NCBI GenBank assembly: GCA_902521725.1
Contig: CABYTF010000003.1
Span: 1 to 64,000, forward strand
Length of the DNA: 64,000 bases
Direction: 5' to 3'
Source: an uncultured Gammaproteobacteria bacterium
GTDB lineage: Bacteria; Pseudomonadota; Gammaproteobacteria; GCA-002705445; GCA-002716945
Below the pieces are notes generated by a model. That model made no database searches. It worked only from the letters and a program-made list of their open reading frames with translations, and was not told the origin of the DNA. Both the position numbers and the translations under genes were made by a program. Positions 12,473 to 31,212 of this stretch are shown here, piece by piece; positions within the stretch are counted from its first letter, which is position 1; each line of letters starts with the position of its first letter.

Positions 12473-12739
12473 ATGAAAAAGATATCGGATTTTATCCCTA
12501 ATAAAATACTCAAGAAAAAAGAGACTATTGGTGAGTTAGACGAAATCCTTATCAATGCATCTGATGACAATATGAAACATAAAATTCATGTAATTAACTA
12601 CTCAGAGACTACTATAACTATTGAATGTGACAGTAGTTCCGTTGGCTCGATACTTAGATTCGAGAGAGAAAAATACCTAGAAATATTTAAAAACTATGGT
12701 TTATATAATATTCAGGATATAAGAATAAAGATTAAATAG
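12473..12739 (+). CDS. dciA: DciA-like DUF721 protein
   Basis: Small protein of the DUF721 family that contains DciA, the ancestral bacterial helicase (DnaB) loader. It has 88 residues from the ATG at 12473; an in-frame ATG 30 nt upstream would add ten unlikely residues (MVYHTINGCY). The family core is visible as alternating strands and a helix: [26 protein letters not shown], in parts, ending IRIKIK. The location between secA and lpxC is the standard gammaproteobacterial one. Its 3' end overlaps convergent lpxC by 8 bp. Confidence 0.72.
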
Positions 12740-13640
12740 ACTCTGTTACATGAGTGAAAAGTATCGGTGTCTTATCCTCATCCTCAATGATTACCTGCTC
12801 CCATGCATTTTCATTGTTGACAAGTTCACGAAGTAAAAGGTTATTAAGATGATGTCCTGATTTAAATGCAGAGAATGACCCGATTAGGCTATGGCCAAGA
12901 AGATATAAGTCACCAATTGCGTCTAGTATTTTATGCTTTACAAACTCGTCTTTGTATCTTAATCCATCTTCATTGACGATTTTATAATCATCTATCACGA
13001 TTGCGTTATTAACGCTCCCACCGAGTGCTAAATTATTTTTTCTCAAATTCTCTATGTCTTTTGCAAAGCCAAAAGTTCTTGCTCTACTTACTTGGCTTAA
13101 ATAAGAAATAGTTGAGAAGTCTATAGTTGAGGTTTGTGTTTCCTTTGGAAAGGAAGGATGATCAAAGTCGATTGTAAAAGCAACCTTAAATCCATCAAAG
13201 GGCTCAATCTTAGCCCATTTATCATTTTGCTTAACTTCGATATCTTTTGTAATTTTAATAAACTTCTTGGGATGGTTTTGCTCGCTGATACCTGCTGATT
13301 GTATCAGAAAGACAAATGGACGTGAGCTTCCATCCATTATAGGGACTTCTGGACCATCTAATTCGATAGTAGCATTATCAATACCTAAACCAGCTAGAGC
13401 AGATAGTAAATGCTCTACCGTTGATACACTGACGGAGCCATTTGAAATTGTAGTTGAAAGTCTAGTATCATGAACATTTTTTAAAGATGCCGTTATAGGG
13501 TCGCTTGTCATATCAGTACGAATAAACACTATACCTCTATCCGGTTTTCCAGGATTTATCCTCAGATTAATTTTTTTACCAGTATGAAGACCCACGCCGG
13601 TAGCGGTTATACTGCTGGATAATGTTCTCTGTTTCAACAT
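12732..13640 (-). CDS. lpxC: UDP-3-O-acyl-N-acetylglucosamine deacetylase LpxC
   Basis: Zinc deacetylase, the committed step of lipid A synthesis. The 302 residues have [10 protein letters not shown] (zinc ligand His77) and the C-terminal [16 protein letters not shown] with the second His and the Asp ligand. GxVxNAIVIDD-like residues ([12 protein letters not shown]) and VSRARTFGF are also typical. It is usually preceded by ftsZ; here ftsZ is absent and the upstream neighbour is ftsA, 65 bp away. The gene has its own near-consensus promoter with no room for a leader or Shine-Dalgarno, so translation probably begins on a leaderless message. Confidence 0.96.
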
Positions 13641-13704: not shown

Positions 13705-14949
13705 TTAAAGTTCTTTCTGAAAATAATCCGACAGTTTCTTAGCATATCTGTCAAACATAGAGCCAATTTTAGATGTATATTTATTTTTTGAGGACATCAA
13801 GTTAATCTCCTTGTACCTGTATAATAGCAGTCCTACTGCTGTAGAGTATCTAGTTTTACCACGCAGATCCTCAAGTCCCTTTATTGATTTTGGGGATCCA
13901 ATTCTTGAAGGTTTTTGAAAATAAGACTCTGCAAAATTATCTAATCCCTCAAGCTTTGCTCCTCCTCCTGTAAATACTAATCCAGCCCTTATTTTGCTTG
14001 AATAACCGCTGTTAGCAATTTCTTTTTGTATAGCATCAAATATTTCATTGACTCTGGCTGCAATAATTTGAGACAGTATAGTTTTTGTTGTTTCAGTATC
14101 TGGCTTATCTGAAACTGATGGTACAGGAATTTTTACATCCATATCACTATTTGATGAAACGCAACCGTGCTGTATTTTAATTTCCTCAGCTGCATCTAAG
14201 GATGTGCATAGTATTATTCTAATATCATTCGTAATCATCTGACTACCAATTGGAATAACAGCAGTATGTTTAATGGTGCCCTCTGTAAAAATTGCTATAT
14301 CTGTTGTTCCACATCCTATATCAATCAGACAAACGCCCAAATCACGTTCCTCGTTAGAGAGGACTGCTTCACTAGAGGCCACTGGTTGTAGGACATAATC
14401 ATCAATCTCTAATAAACTATTATTTATACATTTAGTTAAGTTTCTTTTAGCAGTAGATGATGTAGTAATGATATGAACATTCGCTTCCAATCTTGCTCCT
14501 GCCATACCTAGTGGCTCTCTGATACCTGATTGTCCATCAATAGTATAATGTTGCTCAATAGAATGAAGTATCTCTTGATCTTTAGGAATCTGAATATTCT
14601 GGGCATTATTTAGAACTTTTTCTTTATCTTCAGGGGTTACCTCATCATTTAGAATATTTACTGCGCCGTTTCCGTTGTAACTCTGTATGTGATTGCCAGC
14701 AATTCCTGTAGTTACAGATTGAATATTACAGGTAGACATTGAGCTAGCTTTTTCTTTTGCTCGTCGAATACTTGACACAGTTGCATCTATCTCAGAAATA
14801 ACACCCTTGTTAAGGCCACTACATGGCTCATTGCCAATACCAATGATTCTTAATTCTCCTTTATCATCAATGTCAGCTACTAGGCATAAGACTTTGGATG
14901 TACCTATGTCTAGTGCAACAAGAGTATCTGTGCTTTTTACATTACTCAT
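13705..14949 (-). CDS. ftsA: Cell division protein FtsA
   Basis: Actin-like protein that tethers FtsZ to the membrane. The 414 residues start with the ATPase phosphate-1 loop ALDIGTSKVLCLVAD and include the phosphate-2 loop CLIDIGCGTTDIAIF. The adenosine loop is VFTGGGAKLEGL. A C-terminal amphipathic helix (SMFDRYAKKLSDYFQKEL) suits membrane anchoring. A minus-strand TATAAT lies 8 bp before the ATG with no Shine-Dalgarno. ftsZ, its nearly universal downstream neighbour, is missing here and instead lies 13 kb away within the same cluster. Confidence 0.96.
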   Translation of the reverse strand: MSNVKSTDTLVALDIGTSKVLCLVADIDDKGELRIIGIGNEPCSGLNKGVISEIDATVSSIRRAKEKASSMSTCNIQSVTTGIAGNHIQSYNGNGAVNILNDEVTPEDKEKVLNNAQNIQIPKDQEILHSIEQHYTIDGQSGIREPLGMAGARLEANVHIITTSSTAKRNLTKCINNSLLEIDDYVLQPVASSEAVLSNEERDLGVCLIDIGCGTTDIAIFTEGTIKHTAVIPIGSQMITNDIRIILCTSLDAAEEIKIQHGCVSSNSDMDVKIPVPSVSDKPDTETTKTILSQIIAARVNEIFDAIQKEIANSGYSSKIRAGLVFTGGGAKLEGLDNFAESYFQKPSRIGSPKSIKGLEDLRGKTRYSTAVGLLLYRYKEINLMSSKNKYTSKIGSMFDRYAKKLSDYFQKEL

Positions 14950-26039: not shown

Positions 26040-27729
26040 TACTTTCTAATATTCTCATAGAGTGTTGTAAAAATTCTCCAAAAACAGGTGCGGCATGAAA
26101 TCCACCAGAGCCTTCTCTGTCTTTTGGCTCTCTTATGATAACAGCTGCAACGTACTTAGGTTTTGGGTTTCCTAAAATTCCAACAAATAAAGCGTTATGT
26201 AAATTCTTCTTATATTCACCATTTTTTATTTGTCTAACTGTTCCTGTTTTTCCATATGTAGTGTAGCCACTCACCCTAGCTTTTTTGCCTGTACCATCAG
26301 GAGAATGAACGACCTCTCTCATCATATCAAGAACAGTCTCGGATATTTGCCTATCTAATATCTGTTTTCTGTCATCTGTATCAGTGTTTTTAATATATTT
26401 CAGTTGGGTTTGCGAACCAATATTAGCTAGCATAGTATAAGCATTCACTAGGTGCATTAGCGATACTGATAGCCCATAACCGTAACCAATGCTAAAGTGA
26501 TTCGAGTCGCTTAGTGAGTTGTGTGATGGTACAGATCCATTTTTTGAGCCAGGAAGATTTATAAACAATGATTGCCCAAATCCAAATAAATCAAGATTTC
26601 TTGTCAGTTGTTTTTTTGACAATTTTTTAGAGACCTTGGCAGCACCAATATTACTTGAAAGCTTAATAATGTCACTCGTCGATACCTTCCCAAGATATTT
26701 CCAGTCTTTAATTTCTTTATTATCTAATTTAACTACACCTGGAGCAGTATCAATGATTGTTGATTCGTCAATAACTTTGTTTCTCAGAGCTGCATATATG
26801 ATGAAAGGTTTAATTGTTGAACCTGGTTCGATTAAGTCATAAATAGCCCTATTTTTTATTTTTATTCCTCTATAAGTTTGTCTTTTTTCTGGATCAAAAG
26901 ATGGATAGTTCGCCATTGACAAAATATTGCCAGATTTAGCCTCTACAAGAACTATAGAGCCACTTTCTGCTTGGTATCTTTGTATATACTTTTTGAGCAC
27001 ATCATATGCGATTATTTGTATTCGTTTATCAAGTGTTAAAATCAGGTTTTTCCCGGGACTTGGCTTATTAATAACCTCGATTGTCTCGATAGATCTTCCA
27101 ATATTGTCTTTTTTGATTCTCTTATTTCCGTCTACAGGCTTAAGAATATTATCATTAACTAATTCTATTCCCTCTTGACCGTTGTCATCAATATCAGTAA
27201 AACCGATTACATTAGAGAAGGCCTCACCACCCAAATATGATCTTTTATTTTCATTAATAAAGTAAATATTTGGATTAGACAGTTTACTTATTTCATAATA
27301 TGTTGATTTAGAGATATGCCTTTTAAGGTAGTATTCTTTTCTGTTCTTATTCTTATTTATTATTTTTCTCAGCTTGTCATTAGGCATATTCAGAATATTG
27401 GCGAGTTTTTCCACGTCTACATTATTATCTCTATAGAATAGTCTATTTGGATTTATACACAGTGTTTTTGCAGGCAATGACATAGCAAGGATGTTCTTAT
27501 TTCGATCGTAAATTATGCCTCTTTGTGCCTTGATAATCTGGTTATGAATTTGCCTTTTAGATGCCTCATCGAAAATATTTTGTTTACATGAACCTTCATT
27601 AAAATAGAAGCAATCAGTACCTTTAATTTGAAGTTGATACAATCGAGTAATTATGAGTAGAAATATGACAAGTGCTGCTGTTATGAATAACAGCAGCCTT
27701 ATATTCTGAGTTTTAGTCGTATTCTTAAT
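26017..27729 (-). CDS. ftsI: Septal transpeptidase FtsI (PBP3), apparent ATT start
   Basis: Class B penicillin-binding protein, the septal peptidoglycan transpeptidase partnered with FtsW. The catalytic region has the Ser motif EPGSTIKPF, SSN (SSNIGAAK) and KTGT (YGKTGTVRQI). The first conventional start in frame is a TTG at 27642, which would remove the membrane anchor. Upstream codons back to a stop at 27742-27744 encode an obvious anchor ([20 protein letters not shown] and on). They contain no ATG, GTG or TTG. The most likely start is ATT at 27727-27729, overlapping the ftsZ TAA, giving 570 residues. A sequencing error or mutated ATG is the alternative. Confidence 0.85.
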   Translation of the reverse strand: MKNTTKTQNIRLLLFITAALVIFLLIITRLYQLQIKGTDCFYFNEGSCKQNIFDEASKRQIHNQIIKAQRGIIYDRNKNILAMSLPAKTLCINPNRLFYRDNNVDVEKLANILNMPNDKLRKIINKNKNRKEYYLKRHISKSTYYEISKLSNPNIYFINENKRSYLGGEAFSNVIGFTDIDDNGQEGIELVNDNILKPVDGNKRIKKDNIGRSIETIEVINKPSPGKNLILTLDKRIQIIAYDVLKKYIQRYQAESGSIVLVEAKSGNILSMANYPSFDPEKRQTYRGIKIKNRAIYDLIEPGSTIKPFIIYAALRNKVIDESTIIDTAPGVVKLDNKEIKDWKYLGKVSTSDIIKLSSNIGAAKVSKKLSKKQLTRNLDLFGFGQSLFINLPGSKNGSVPSHNSLSDSNHFSIGYGYGLSVSLMHLVNAYTMLANIGSQTQLKYIKNTDTDDRKQILDRQISETVLDMMREVVHSPDGTGKKARVSGYTTYGKTGTVRQIKNGEYKKNLHNALFVGILGNPKPKYVAAVIIREPKDREGSGGFHAAPVFGEFLQHSMRILESIEYAGTE

Positions 27730-28873
27730 CTGCTTGTTGTCTTAAGAACGCAGGTATATCAATTGAAGTCTGATCATCTTGCTGGTTAACATTGACCTGG
27801 GCCAGTGACTCATCAGAAACCTGATTGCCTGGTATGATTGGTGAAGTGCTAGTGTCTGGAGCCGATCTATCTAACTCAGATGTATTCGCCTCTGACAATG
27901 CAGTATCTGCAGGGTTGGTTTGCGCAAACCCAGTTGCGATTATAGTCACTCTGAGATCACCAATATTATCGTCCTCTTTAATGCATCCGGTTATAATTTT
28001 TGCATCTTCATTTGCAATCTCTCTTATTTTGCTTCCAATCACCTCGAATTCATCGGTTGTTAAGTCAGAACCAGATGTGATATTGACTAAAACACCACTT
28101 GCTCCTTGAAGATCAATATTATCCAAGAGTGGACTACTTAATGCCGTAGTAACAGCTTCAACTGCTCTATTCTCGCCAGATGATACACCTGAACCCATCA
28201 TTGCTTTACCCATGCCGGACATTACAGTTTTTACATCAGCAAAGTCAACATTCATAAATCCTCGGATAGTAATTATCTCTGTTATACCTTTCACTGCTCC
28301 TCTTAAAACATCATTTGCGTTCTCGAAGGAAGAAAATATTGATTCATCGCCACCATATACCTCTTTAAGCTTTGAATTAGGAATAACAATTAGTGAATCT
28401 ACCCATTGTTCGAGGTTGTTAATACCTTCTTGAGCATTTGACATCCTCTCCGGGCCCTCAAAGTCGAATGGTTTTGTAACAACTGCAACAGTGAGGATAC
28501 CAAGGTCTCTCGCTATTTGAGCTATTACAGGTGCGGCACCAGTTCCTGTACCTCCTCCCATTCCAGCAGCGATAAAAAGCATGTCAGCTCCCTCAATTGA
28601 TTCTTTTAGTGTTTCACTGGCTTCTAATGCAGCTTGCCTTCCTTTTTCAGGATCAGCTCCGGCACCTAATCCTTTTGTTATTTCAGATCCAATTTGAACA
28701 GTTGTAGCTCCGTCTACATCTCTTAGTGCTTGTACGTCAGTGTTCGCAATTAAAAAATCTGCACCATGTATCTGTGACTTCAGCATTGAAATGATTGCGT
28801 TGCCGCCACCGCCACCAACACCGATGACTTTGATAACTGCATTTTGATTATAATTATTGACTATTTCAAACAT
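27725..28873 (-). CDS. ftsZ: Cell division GTPase FtsZ
   Basis: Tubulin homolog that forms the Z ring. The 382 residues carry [10 protein letters not shown], the tubulin signature GGGTGTGAA (residues 106-114), and [10 protein letters not shown]. The C-terminal conserved peptide [11 protein letters not shown], which binds FtsA and ZipA, closes the protein. A strong Shine-Dalgarno (AGGAGG, 7 bp before the ATG) is unusual among its dcw neighbours. Its position between ftsL and ftsI is also unusual: gammaproteobacteria normally have ftsA-ftsZ-lpxC. The stop codon overlaps the probable ATT start of ftsI. Confidence 0.97.
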
Positions 28874-28882
28874 GGTGTCCTC

Positions 28883-29155
28883 CTAATGTTCTAAGTTCAT
28901 GATTAAAATTCTTTCTTTTGTTGGTAGCTGCATATTCAATGCTTCACCTAAACTATTTTTCTGAAGTTTTCTATCCGTCACTTCAGTTTGCTCCTGTAGT
29001 AATTGTCTATATGACTCTGAGAGATAAAATAATCTTTTTTCATTTTTAGATATCTCAATGTTTAGCATCCTATTTTGATATTTAACAAAAATTACACCAA
29101 AAGCTGATATAGTTATGAATATTATTAAAACAAGTGAATAAGTCAGATTTGTCAT
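28883..29155 (-). CDS. ftsL: Cell division protein FtsL
   Basis: Bitopic divisome protein that forms a complex with FtsB and FtsQ. The 90 residues have one N-terminal transmembrane helix (about 5-25) and a periplasmic coiled coil rich in Glu, Leu and Gln, ending with a RILIMNLEH tail. Sequence is poorly conserved in this family. The call rests on topology, size and position directly after rsmH (4-bp overlap). The next gene is ftsZ rather than the usual ftsI. Confidence 0.85.
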   Translation of the reverse strand: MTNLTYSLVLIIFITISAFGVIFVKYQNRMLNIEISKNEKRLFYLSESYRQLLQEQTEVTDRKLQKNSLGEALNMQLPTKERILIMNLEH

Positions 29156-30081
29156 TGCTTCTCTAAAACATTAATTTTTGCAGACCTAGATCTAGGATTT
29201 GAAGTTACCTCGTCACAAGATGGTTTGATTTTCTTTATCACTGTGAACATCTTCGTCAAGAAATCTTTTTTTATAGGCATCTTCCGCGGAGTATTTAAAT
29301 TATGGTCAGTAAAAACTATAAAATCTTTTATTACTTTCTCTTCTAGAGAATGATAAGTGATTAGAACAAGCCGTCCCTTGGGAGCAAGGATATTATATGA
29401 CTTCTCTAACACTTCTTTTAGAACCTCGAGTTCTTTATTAATAAATATCCTCAATGCTTGAAAAGACCGGGTGGCGTTATGTTTATTCTTATCATTAACA
29501 ATCACGGATTTGTTAATTATATTTACAAGTTCGAATGTCTCGCTAATAGGATTATTTATCCTGTGCTTTACAATATTTTTTGCAATTCTTTTTGAAAATT
29601 TTTCTTGTCCATATGACCTTAAAATATACTCAATTTCCTTCTCAGGTAACTCATTTATGTATTCAGATACTTTCTTGCCCCTGCTTCTATCAAATCTCAT
29701 ATCTAATAATGCATTCTTATTGAAGCTAAAGCCTCTTTCAGCACTATCCAAGTGCACTGAAGATACTCCTAAATCGAATAAAATTCCATTAACCGATCCA
29801 TATATATTCCATGTTCTTGTATATTCATCCAGAGAAGAGAAACATCCATGTTTAAGGGTAAATCTCTTCTCTTCTGATAATTCTTTTTTATTAAATTCTA
29901 TTGCATCAATATCTTTATCGATCGCAAACAATTTTGACTTTGATGATGTTTCTTCTAAGATATGTTTTGAGTGACCACCATATCCTAGAGTGGCATCTAC
30001 ATATATGCCGTCTCTATCAGATATTAAATGACTAATTGCCTCATGTTTCATTACTGGAATATGAAAATTAGTATTATTCAT
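29152..30081 (-). CDS. rsmH: 16S rRNA m4C1402 methyltransferase RsmH (MraW)
   Basis: SAM-dependent N4-methyltransferase for C1402 of 16S rRNA. The 309 residues begin HIPVMKHEAISHL and contain the SAM-binding YVDATLGYGGHSKHIL. FDLGVSSVHLDSAERGFSF and the C-terminal ITYHSLEEKVIKDF and NPRSRSAKINVLE blocks follow, all family signatures. It overlaps the upstream J-domain gene by 8 bp and ftsL by 4 bp. Confidence 0.97.
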   Translation of the reverse strand: MNNTNFHIPVMKHEAISHLISDRDGIYVDATLGYGGHSKHILEETSSKSKLFAIDKDIDAIEFNKKELSEEKRFTLKHGCFSSLDEYTRTWNIYGSVNGILFDLGVSSVHLDSAERGFSFNKNALLDMRFDRSRGKKVSEYINELPEKEIEYILRSYGQEKFSKRIAKNIVKHRINNPISETFELVNIINKSVIVNDKNKHNATRSFQALRIFINKELEVLKEVLEKSYNILAPKGRLVLITYHSLEEKVIKDFIVFTDHNLNTPRKMPIKKDFLTKMFTVIKKIKPSCDEVTSNPRSRSAKINVLEKQ

Positions 30082-30268
30082 TTTTTTTACTTTCCATAAT
30101 ATTTTCGTAAGCTGATTTAATTTTTATAAATATCTTATTAGATTCAATGCTGTCGTTGTTTTTGTCCGGATGATACTTAGATGCCAGTTTCTTGAAAGCT
30201 AGCTTAATTACTGAGCTATCATCATCTGCATTAACACCTAATATTTTATATTCGTTATTTTTGATCAT
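30074..30268 (-). CDS. Minimal J-domain protein in the dcw cluster
   Basis: A 64-residue protein that is nothing but a J domain: EYKILGV, the basic helix II (KLAFKKLASKYHPDKN) with the HPD tripeptide at about residues 33-35, and a helix III ending at the C-terminus. The domain stimulates DnaK-type ATPases. There is no G/F region, zinc finger or membrane segment. Its ATG overlaps the mraZ stop (ATGA) and its end overlaps rsmH by 8 bp, so it is translated as part of the cluster. I know no standard dcw member of this kind; the partner Hsp70 and clients are unknown. Confidence 0.85.
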   Translation of the reverse strand: MIKNNEYKILGVNADDDSSVIKLAFKKLASKYHPDKNNDSIESNKIFIKIKSAYENIMESKKNE

Positions 30269-30726
30269 ATGCTTAAGTCGCTTAATGCCTCCTCATCATC
30301 GACAGATGTTGCTTCTTCACGCCACATCTCAACATTTTCGTTCCAACAGCCTTGATCCCAAATTTCGAACTTTTCGCCCTGTCCTATCAAAATTATTTTC
30401 TTTGATAATGATGCGTATTCTCTCAAGGGCTTTGATATTAATATTCTCCCGCTAGAGTCAACATCAATATCCTCTGCATGCCCAATTAAGAGTCTTTGTA
30501 TCCTTCTTGCATTTTTATTAAATGAGGGTAAGTTACTGATTTTATCCTGAATTTTAGACCAAACGCTTGAAGGGTAGAGAAGCAAGCACTTCTCTTCTGT
30601 ATCAATGGTAATAACCATAGACCCTTTTAATAAGCCCATTATGTGATCACGATAGGTAATAGGGATCCCTAGCCTACCCTTTGAATCGAGACTAAGGTTG
30701 TGTATACCTTTAAAAAGATTCTCCAT
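30265..30726 (-). CDS. mraZ: Transcriptional regulator MraZ
   Basis: AbrB/SpoVT-fold DNA-binding repressor that leads dcw clusters and regulates them. The 153-residue form from the ATG at 30726 starts MENLFKGIHNLSLDSKGRLGI, the family N-terminus, and is preceded by GGAG at about 6 bp. A longer ATG 30 nt upstream adds a non-conserved stretch and was rejected. A second repeat (DVDSSGRILISKPLREYASL) completes the tandem domain. The TGGGN direct repeats usually bound by MraZ were not evident upstream. Confidence 0.94.
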   Translation of the reverse strand: MENLFKGIHNLSLDSKGRLGIPITYRDHIMGLLKGSMVITIDTEEKCLLLYPSSVWSKIQDKISNLPSFNKNARRIQRLLIGHAEDIDVDSSGRILISKPLREYASLSKKIILIGQGEKFEIWDQGCWNENVEMWREEATSVDDEEALSDLSI

Positions 30727-30886
30727 AATTCTCCACAAAATAACAAATATTGCCATTTATCAACACTATATGCCCAATTATTGATTTATGCAAGCAAATA
30801 AATGGCTAAATTGATGATAATGGTATGAGATGATTGATTTTATATATTCATATATATCAATTACTTAGAGTATATTTGTGATGGTT
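30727..30886. promoter_or_regulatory. Intergenic region upstream of mraZ / downstream of rnpB
   Basis: This 160-bp non-coding stretch should hold the promoter of the dcw operon and the 3' flank of rnpB, both read on the minus strand. It is very AT-rich. I could not pick a convincing -35/-10 pair, a MraZ operator or a T-tract terminator. Confidence 0.4.
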
Positions 30887-31212
30887 GAGAGTTAGTTGAT
30901 AAGCCGGGTTCTGTCGAGTACAGCCATTTATCTGGGATTATTGTCACCAATAATCTCATTAGCAGCAACCATGTGATTGTCTTGGGATTAATCACAAATT
31001 TGCCTTGCTCCAAGCGGGGTTTACTTATGCCTGCTTTGTTACCTCAGCAGCGGTAGGCTCTTACCCTACCTTTTCACCCTTACCTAATAATAGGCGGTTA
31101 TTTTCTGCAGCACTTTCCAAAACTCACGTTTCCCAGGTGTTACCTGGCGCTTTTATCCCTGGAGCCCGGACTTTCCTCTATGATAAACATAGCGACTGCA
31201 TAACTAACTCTC
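30887..31212 (-). ncRNA. rnpB: RNase P RNA (type A)
   Basis: Catalytic RNA that matures tRNA 5' ends. On the minus strand the 5' and 3' ends pair perfectly as helix P1: GAGAGTTAGTT (31202-31212) with AACTAACTCTC (30887-30897). Conserved blocks are visible: GAGGAAAGTCCGGGCTCC near the 5' end, GCCAGGTAACACCTGGG, the GAAAAGGTAGGGTAAGAGCC-like P4-proximal region, and ACAGAACCCGGCTTAT at the 3' end (the loop that recognises the tRNA CCA). About 326 nt, compact compared with E. coli (377). Position upstream of mraZ is common in gammaproteobacteria. Small plus-strand reading frames across it are spurious. Confidence 0.96.

Follow-up and report, generated by a model that had tools for sequence, protein, structure and literature searches.

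J domains recruit Hsp70, and in HscB the J protein also has a client-binding C-terminal domain. By design, the closest studied relative of the short J-domain protein described here (mini-J) is AtcJ of Shewanella oneidensis, likewise a short, operon-encoded class C protein without G/F region, zinc finger and C-terminal DnaJ domains, which stimulates DnaK weakly and in an HPD-dependent manner according to the cited passages of PMC6715715. Judged from sequence, the two form separate families by score, length and gene neighbours. AtcJ has 94 amino acids with a 21-aa C-terminal extension binding AtcC; its gene belongs to atcJABC and the protein is required at low temperature, whereas mini-J has 63-65 residues (20 of 21 sequences), lacks the extension and is encoded between mraZ and rsmH; its score against the AtcJ model of NCBIfam (NF050028) is 33.5 bits, below the cut-off of 150. 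A meeting report from late 2023 names AtcJ as the shortest J protein of class C that has been studied (PMC10939069, passages cited), and the lower size limit of class C is given as 54 residues (PMC8215388), so that the small size of mini-J alone is not new. HscB, encoded with IscU and HscA, is comparable as a specialised J protein whose gene shares an operon with that of its client (PMC6715715). It has its own Hsp70, unlike mini-J, and the family investigated here possesses a separate HscB-like gene, which is located beside an HscA-like one in the genome under study. With DnaJ and CbpA (class A and B), mini-J shares the sequence and fold of the J domain, but not the G/F region and the client-binding domains.

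The function of MraZ is, to our knowledge, only partly understood, and the gene order of the E. coli dcw operon as known to us includes no J gene. The dcw operon of Burkholderia cenocepacia is described as containing the same genes as that of E. coli (PMC7761207, passages cited). The locus described here resembles these MraZ-regulated operons in having a promoter followed by GTG-type repeats with a period of 10 nt downstream of the -10 box. It differs from both in the presence of mini-J and in the position of ftsZ between ftsL and ftsI.

The mini-J gene, its operon and the probable MraZ operator

The window analysed in this study is a stretch of 64,000 nucleotides from an uncultured gammaproteobacterium (contig CABYTF010000003.1, positions 1 to 64,000). 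The genes concerned are the following:

30265..30726, reverse strand: mraZ with its corrected start (MENLFKG...), Pfam MraZ
30074..30268, reverse strand: mini-J gene, a bare J domain of 64 aa with HPD at residues 33-35 and an ATG start
29152..30081, reverse strand: rsmH (mraW), Pfam Methyltransf_5
28883..29155, reverse strand: ftsL, assigned by Pfam, overlapping the rsmH stop by 4 nt
27725..28873, reverse strand: ftsZ, assigned by Pfam, in an unusual place between ftsL and ftsI

The mraZ reading frame as listed (30265-30756) is probably ten codons too long at its start, which was placed at 30726 because conservation across the family begins about there. The ATG of mini-J shares 4 nt with the mraZ stop (ATGA, 30265-30268), while its stop shares 8 nt with the rsmH ATG (30074-30081). 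On its 3' side, the gene is followed by rsmH, ftsL, ftsZ, ftsI, murE and murF, the last of which was read from its translation. The 64-aa product matches Pfam DnaJ with 57.6 bits (E 1.4e-15, cut-off 27.8). An earlier note on this DNA had claimed a 64-residue J protein with an intact HPD motif at these positions, locked by overlaps between mraZ and rsmH, and both claims were borne out.

Mini-J contains neither a G/F region nor a zinc finger nor a C-terminal DnaJ domain, the third helix ending at residue 63. An AlphaFold2 model built from 18 family sequences (mean pLDDT 84.8, pTM 0.65) predicts helices at residues 4-10, 18-31 and 41-63, corresponding to helices I, II and III, while a separate helix IV is absent from the model. 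The best Foldseek match of this model was the J domain of DnaK-bound DnaJ (5nro_B, probability 1.00, E 4.5e-3; all matches of this short chain have E values >1e-3), and DnaJ J domains rank best among the solved structures. In NCBIfam, mini-J reaches 54 bits with PRK10767, the model for full-length DnaJ (cut-off 338), where the J domain alone was matched; its 15 NCBIfam matches include no HscB family. By its sequence, the HPD motif and the missing extra domains, mini-J can be assigned to the class C J-domain proteins, and it is predicted to stimulate the ATPase activity of an Hsp70.

Upstream of mraZ, the following elements were found (counts cover 20 loci, L051 being left out where a contig end cuts it):

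30788..30793, reverse strand: -35-like TTGCAT (TTGCAT in 18 of 20 loci, TTGCAA in 2), with a 17-nt spacer to the -10 element
30765..30770, reverse strand: -10-like TATAGT, present in 20 of 21 loci
30716..30765, reverse strand: five direct repeats TGT/TGG/TGT/TGG/TGG with exact 10-nt spacing in 20 of 20 loci

The promoter was not among the matches of a scan with the consensus promoter, since its -35 element fits the consensus at 3 of 6 bases only. The TG(T/G) repeats are located between the -10 box and the mraZ start, and the bases between them are mostly variable across the 20 loci. Repeats 4 and 5 extend into the ribosome-binding site and the mraZ start codon and could be conserved for that reason as well. 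The fragment shifted by MraZ of Burkholderia contains four 7-nt repeats with 3-nt spacers downstream of a -10 box; the repeats were found through a GTG motif and named a putative MraZ site, and the authors suggested that an octameric ring recognises them, as has been demonstrated for Mollicutes (PMC7761207, passages cited). Because period (10 nt) and place match those of the Burkholderia repeats, the TG(T/G) repeats are probably, by analogy, the MraZ operator, and mini-J probably belongs to the MraZ regulon. Directly upstream of this promoter, on the same strand, an RNase P RNA gene is located (30884-31211, Rfam RF00010, 267.5 bits).

The position of ftsZ before ftsI is common to all 21 family loci, from which it follows that ftsZ probably moved in an ancestor of the family. 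In the window, the gene read as ftsA is directly followed by the one read as lpxC (13705-14949 and 12732-13640 region), ftsZ being located elsewhere (27725-28873).

Distribution and conservation of mini-J

The family to which the window belongs was represented by 25 genomes from six genera. A short J frame adjoins mraZ in 21 of them, which is every family genome with a detectable mraZ. The order mraZ-J-rsmH-ftsL-ftsZ-ftsI-murE was found in 21 of 21 loci (the window and 20 relatives), with the limits that FtsL gave no tblastn match in L044 and L049 and that G006 is frame-shifted. In four family assemblies (G005, G013, G020 and G021), mraZ, mini-J and rsmH are all absent. The joint loss of mraZ and mini-J was considered as a pointer to the client and rejected, since rsmH is absent as well and the region is thus simply missing from these assemblies. 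For the overlap counts, starts of mini-J and rsmH were picked by hand among in-frame candidates, and G006 was left out. Mini-J overlaps mraZ by 1 nt in 10 and by 4 nt in 9 of 20 loci and abuts it in one, while the overlap with rsmH amounts to 8 nt (7/20), 4 nt (7/20) or 1 nt (6/20). G010 and G018 have two adjacent mini-J starts, the first of which was used for these counts and the second for the alignment. In G006 (L037), mraZ, rsmH, ftsL and ftsZ are each matched in pieces from more than one frame and the reading frame of mini-J is truncated, which is more likely due to sequencing error than to decay.

A scan with an alignment of the family MraZ yielded 73 loci, of which 20 have a mini-J; the latter belong to the same family genomes and are not an independent sample. 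The remaining 53 mraZ loci comprise 36 from Gammaproteobacteria or class members (one titled only Proteobacteria), 16 from Bacteroidota and one from Calescamantes. None of them carries a J-like frame (at least 35 residues, E up to 1), and rsmH follows within about 230 nt of the mraZ match. The search for similar genes in mraZ-rsmH intervals that the earlier note had proposed was therefore positive in all 21 family genomes with mraZ and negative at the 53 other loci. When 369 class genomes were searched with a profile of 18 mini-Js, four matches exceeded 100 bits, all of them within the family, and no equally strong match was obtained in the other 365. The next-best matches had 72 bits and belonged to frames of at least 352 aa. 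Two frames shorter than 150 aa among the matches listed (G083, 87 aa, and G376, 145 aa, near contig start) were tentatively taken as cut DnaJ genes. Among 398 genomes of the phylum, the window's own genome alone passed the threshold of 1e-22 in a search for mini-J. As far as these samples go, mini-J is a trait of the window's family. A search of phages returned 35 records with J-domain matches to mini-J, all below 60% identity, and of seven PHROGs families matched none has a known function. In the open-access literature, no description of a J gene between mraZ and rsmH was found in titles and abstract beginnings among the matches listed.

Mini-J overlaps rsmH (by 1-8 nt in all 20 loci scored) with the same constancy as it does mraZ, which would also suit an action on RsmH, which modifies 16S rRNA. 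DnaK has a role in ribosome assembly, and DnaK recruited by mini-J might help in RsmH folding or late 30S assembly. Such a route via RsmH or the ribosome is considered very unlikely, given that mini-J directly follows mraZ within the probable MraZ regulon and that rsmH does without mini-J at all 53 other loci, although the same is true of mraZ.

Three family genomes harbor a second mraZ-rsmH pair on a separate contig (G012, C20, L146; G023, C53, L147; G024, C19, L148), where no J-like frame was detected (E up to 1). The MraZ proteins encoded there are 29%, 32% and 51% identical, respectively, to the window's MraZ over the aligned part. At two of the three pairs ftsI comes after rsmH without an FtsZ match in between, whereas the third stretch ends inside rsmH. 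The GC content of the second-pair contig and the mini-J locus is 0.43 versus 0.30 in G012, 0.35 versus 0.33 and 0.28 versus 0.31 in the others, and the stated contamination is 3, 6 and 5% for G012, G023 and G024. These contigs are probably foreign, most clearly so in G012.

All 21 mini-Js contain the HPD motif, and 20 have a length of 63-65 residues, the G006 frame stopping at 48. Of 210 pairs, 20 had a usable dS (0.05-1.5) and 139 were saturated. Omega amounts to 0.075-0.13 in six pairs with a dS of 0.2-1.0, all within a genus, and the closest usable pair (dS 0.06) has no amino-acid change. For thirteen more distant pairs (dS 1.13-1.49), values of 0.086-0.48 were obtained, dS being unreliable in this range. 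Close pairs are under strong purifying selection. The possibility named in the earlier note, that the gene is not conserved beyond this genome, does not hold, as mini-J is present family-wide and under such selection. A chance reading frame or pseudogene was ruled out by the Pfam E value, the conservation and the low omega of the close pairs. As far as seen, mini-J is a real, conserved and lineage-specific gene, a new class C variant at an unusual genomic address. In a tree of 18 of the 21 mini-Js (G003, G006 and G015 left out), these are located on one side of a branch (support 100/98) with a long stem, opposite 30 DnaJ-type J domains. With these sequences, the tree is compatible both with descent from the family's own DnaJ (AU p 0.487) and with another origin.

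DnaK contact residues and DnaK in the family

In the cited passages of PMC8215388, R22, K26, R27, K48, K51 and HPD are given as the contacts of DnaJ to DnaK, and the salt bridge between K48 and D477 of DnaK is presumed to contribute to the coupling of hydrolysis with the binding of a client. The numbering of E. coli DnaJ applies to the window's mini-J without gaps. Lys occupies position 22 in all 20 readable mini-Js, basic residues are found at position 27 in 21 of 21 and at position 51 in 18 of 20, and F47 is common to all 21. At position 26, a basic residue is present in 11 of 21 only. Position 48 is basic in none (Ile 17, Tyr 2, Thr 1, Leu 1), while K48 is present in 12 of 13 family DnaJ proteins, the thirteenth (G002) being shifted by a one-residue insertion. 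A further difference is an acidic pair in mini-J (E/D at position 16 in 20 of 20 readable, D at 17 in 21 of 21), where the family DnaJ has A16 and S/T17. The DnaK of G004, the one family DnaK compared, keeps all eight J-contact residues named in PMC8215388 (R167, E206, D211, E217, Q378, L391, P419 and D477; positions counted by hand). Since the contacts are mostly kept and the partner residues are retained in this DnaK, mini-J is likely to bind DnaK, as far as can be read from the sequences; its coupling to client binding may differ from that of DnaJ.

Consisting of the J domain only and having another residue, mostly Ile, in place of K48, mini-J could also hold DnaK without productive client transfer. 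Mini-J would then act as a decoy competing with DnaJ, so that DnaJ-dependent work, e.g. the control of the heat-shock sigma factor, would be lowered when the division operon is active. DnaK usually outnumbers J proteins, however, and a decoy gives no reason for the strict linkage to mraZ, which makes this reading highly improbable.

DnaK was told from HscA solely by score and by neighbours or place. Full-length DnaK-like matches were obtained in 13 of the 25 family genomes and fragments in three more (G007, G019 and G021), whereas nine assemblies had no DnaK match. In the window's assembly, HscB-like and HscA-like genes are neighbours and neither DnaK nor DnaJ was found, the sole full-length HSP70 being HscA-like. 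In G004, dnaK and dnaJ are part of a 12-kb block which, except for a 194-nt cross-match in the HscA-like gene, has no counterpart in the window's assembly. This block also contains ispG, grpE, dapB, fabD, fabG and fabF (read by eye). As these genes are missing too and relatives have dnaK-dnaJ, an assembly gap is the simpler reading, and the absence of dnaK-dnaJ from the window's assembly is probably of this kind. The idea that mini-J replaces a lost DnaJ was rejected on the same grounds. With dnaK missing or fragmentary in 12 of 25 family assemblies, the conserved dnaK block perhaps breaks metagenome assembly.

With an HscA-like protein as the sole full-length HSP70 assembled, mini-J might be thought to serve HscA instead of DnaK, for example feeding iron-sulfur assembly. 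This is the least probable of the readings considered: the missing dnaK probably belongs to a block that is present in relatives and was not assembled here, the HscB-like and HscA-like genes adjoin elsewhere in the genome, and mini-J resembles DnaJ (PRK10767, Pfam DnaJ) without an HscB family among its NCBIfam matches. Mini-J is very probably a working J co-chaperone of DnaK.

Apart from mini-J, the J-domain frames of the 25 genomes are of DnaJ size (371-378 aa, and a cut one) or HscB size (168-180 aa), with the exception of one frame of 610 aa. The latter (G007:C5:53000-54975, L150) is located near a contig end and combines an incomplete J domain with an EF-Tu-like sequence (by eye) that directly follows it; the frame is perhaps a chimera.

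Possible clients and role of mini-J

The reading preferred here, and held with modest confidence as a whole, is that mini-J is a minimal class C J co-chaperone of DnaK, dedicated to a product of its own operon. Transcribed from a promoter that MraZ would repress, mini-J would be synthesised directly after MraZ through translational coupling, which would bring it next to newly made MraZ and RsmH. It would dock on DnaK-ATP via helix II and HPD and trigger ATP hydrolysis, upon which DnaK would clamp a client supplied by proximity and not by a client-binding domain. As nothing in a bare J domain binds clients, either proximity or the surface of the J domain would have to determine the choice of the client. 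Precedents are AtcJ, which binds a product of its own operon (AtcC), and HscB, which shares an operon with IscU (PMC6715715, passages cited). Dedication to an operon product, taken by itself, is somewhat favoured.

MraZ is the favoured client, as the product of the immediate upstream gene, as an oligomeric DNA-binding protein whose probable operator controls the operon, and because Hsp70 disassembles such proteins, namely RepA, RepE and RctB oligomers (PMC8215388, passages cited). By analogy with these, DnaK could disassemble MraZ or keep it soluble. MraZ in particular is nevertheless a tentative choice and, taken singly, rather unlikely; RsmH or a divisome subunit would be the next candidates. 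A more specific form of the proposal is a chaperone-gated switch, in which mini-J would couple DnaK to operator-bound MraZ oligomers; free DnaK would remove or remodel the repressor and open the division operon, and stress titrating DnaK would close it. This is quite unlikely, but if true, mini-J would be a co-chaperone of a single domain devoted to a regulator of division.

Rate covariation was analysed for 17 of the 21 loci (31 branches), with G003 and G006 left out beforehand, L044 and L049 dropped for lack of an FtsL tblastn match, and stop signs inside tblastn stretches treated as X. Mini-J had no significant partner among six operon genes (mraZ: rho 0.20, p 0.29), while the analysis did detect mraZ-ftsL (rho 0.51, p 0.003, uncorrected). 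The absence of covariation with operon partners would fit a general auxiliary J protein without a target of its own, which would increase DnaK ATPase wherever required and be kept in this operon only for the constitutive expression of the latter in a streamlined genome with few other J proteins. Auxiliary J proteins are indeed scarce in the family, the other J frames being of DnaJ or HscB size besides the odd 610-aa one. A bare J domain is expected to be a weak stimulator, however (AtcJ reached 3.3-fold at 50 uM; PMC6715715, passages cited), and mini-J occupies the same position in 21 genomes of six genera, so that such a general function is unlikely.

Counting against the preferred dedicated co-chaperone are the same null result in covariation, the replacement of K48 in all 21 sequences, the basic residue at position 26 in 11 of 21, the missing client-binding extension, the second mraZ-rsmH pairs without a J gene, the absence of dnaK-dnaJ from the window's assembly, probably through a gap, and the nine of 25 assemblies without DnaK. 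The suggestion in the earlier note of chaperone control of division therefore stands in part. Its chaperone side is well founded, as a minimal and conserved J protein with mostly kept Hsp70-contact residues was found; its division side is plausible. The sole links of mini-J to division control are co-location and probable co-regulation. The fixed place in the mraZ operon narrows the candidate clients to a few and allows direct control of division genes by DnaK to be tested, and mini-J represents a natural experiment in the minimal needs of a J protein.

Other parts of the window encode genes of a different kind. Between 33042 and 51587, genes resembling tetrahydromethanopterin-linked C1 metabolism were found, encoding a DUF6513/pterin-binding protein, a flavoprotein, a formaldehyde-activating-enzyme-like protein and formylmethanofuran-dehydrogenase-like subunits (flavoprotein and DUF6513 by Pfam, the remaining genes read from translations). 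Between 54318 and 61417, the translations resemble a selenium-binding protein or methanethiol oxidase, a FadL-like porin, a ferredoxin reductase and an AlkB-type monooxygenase, which suggests the oxidation of a small substrate in this small genome.
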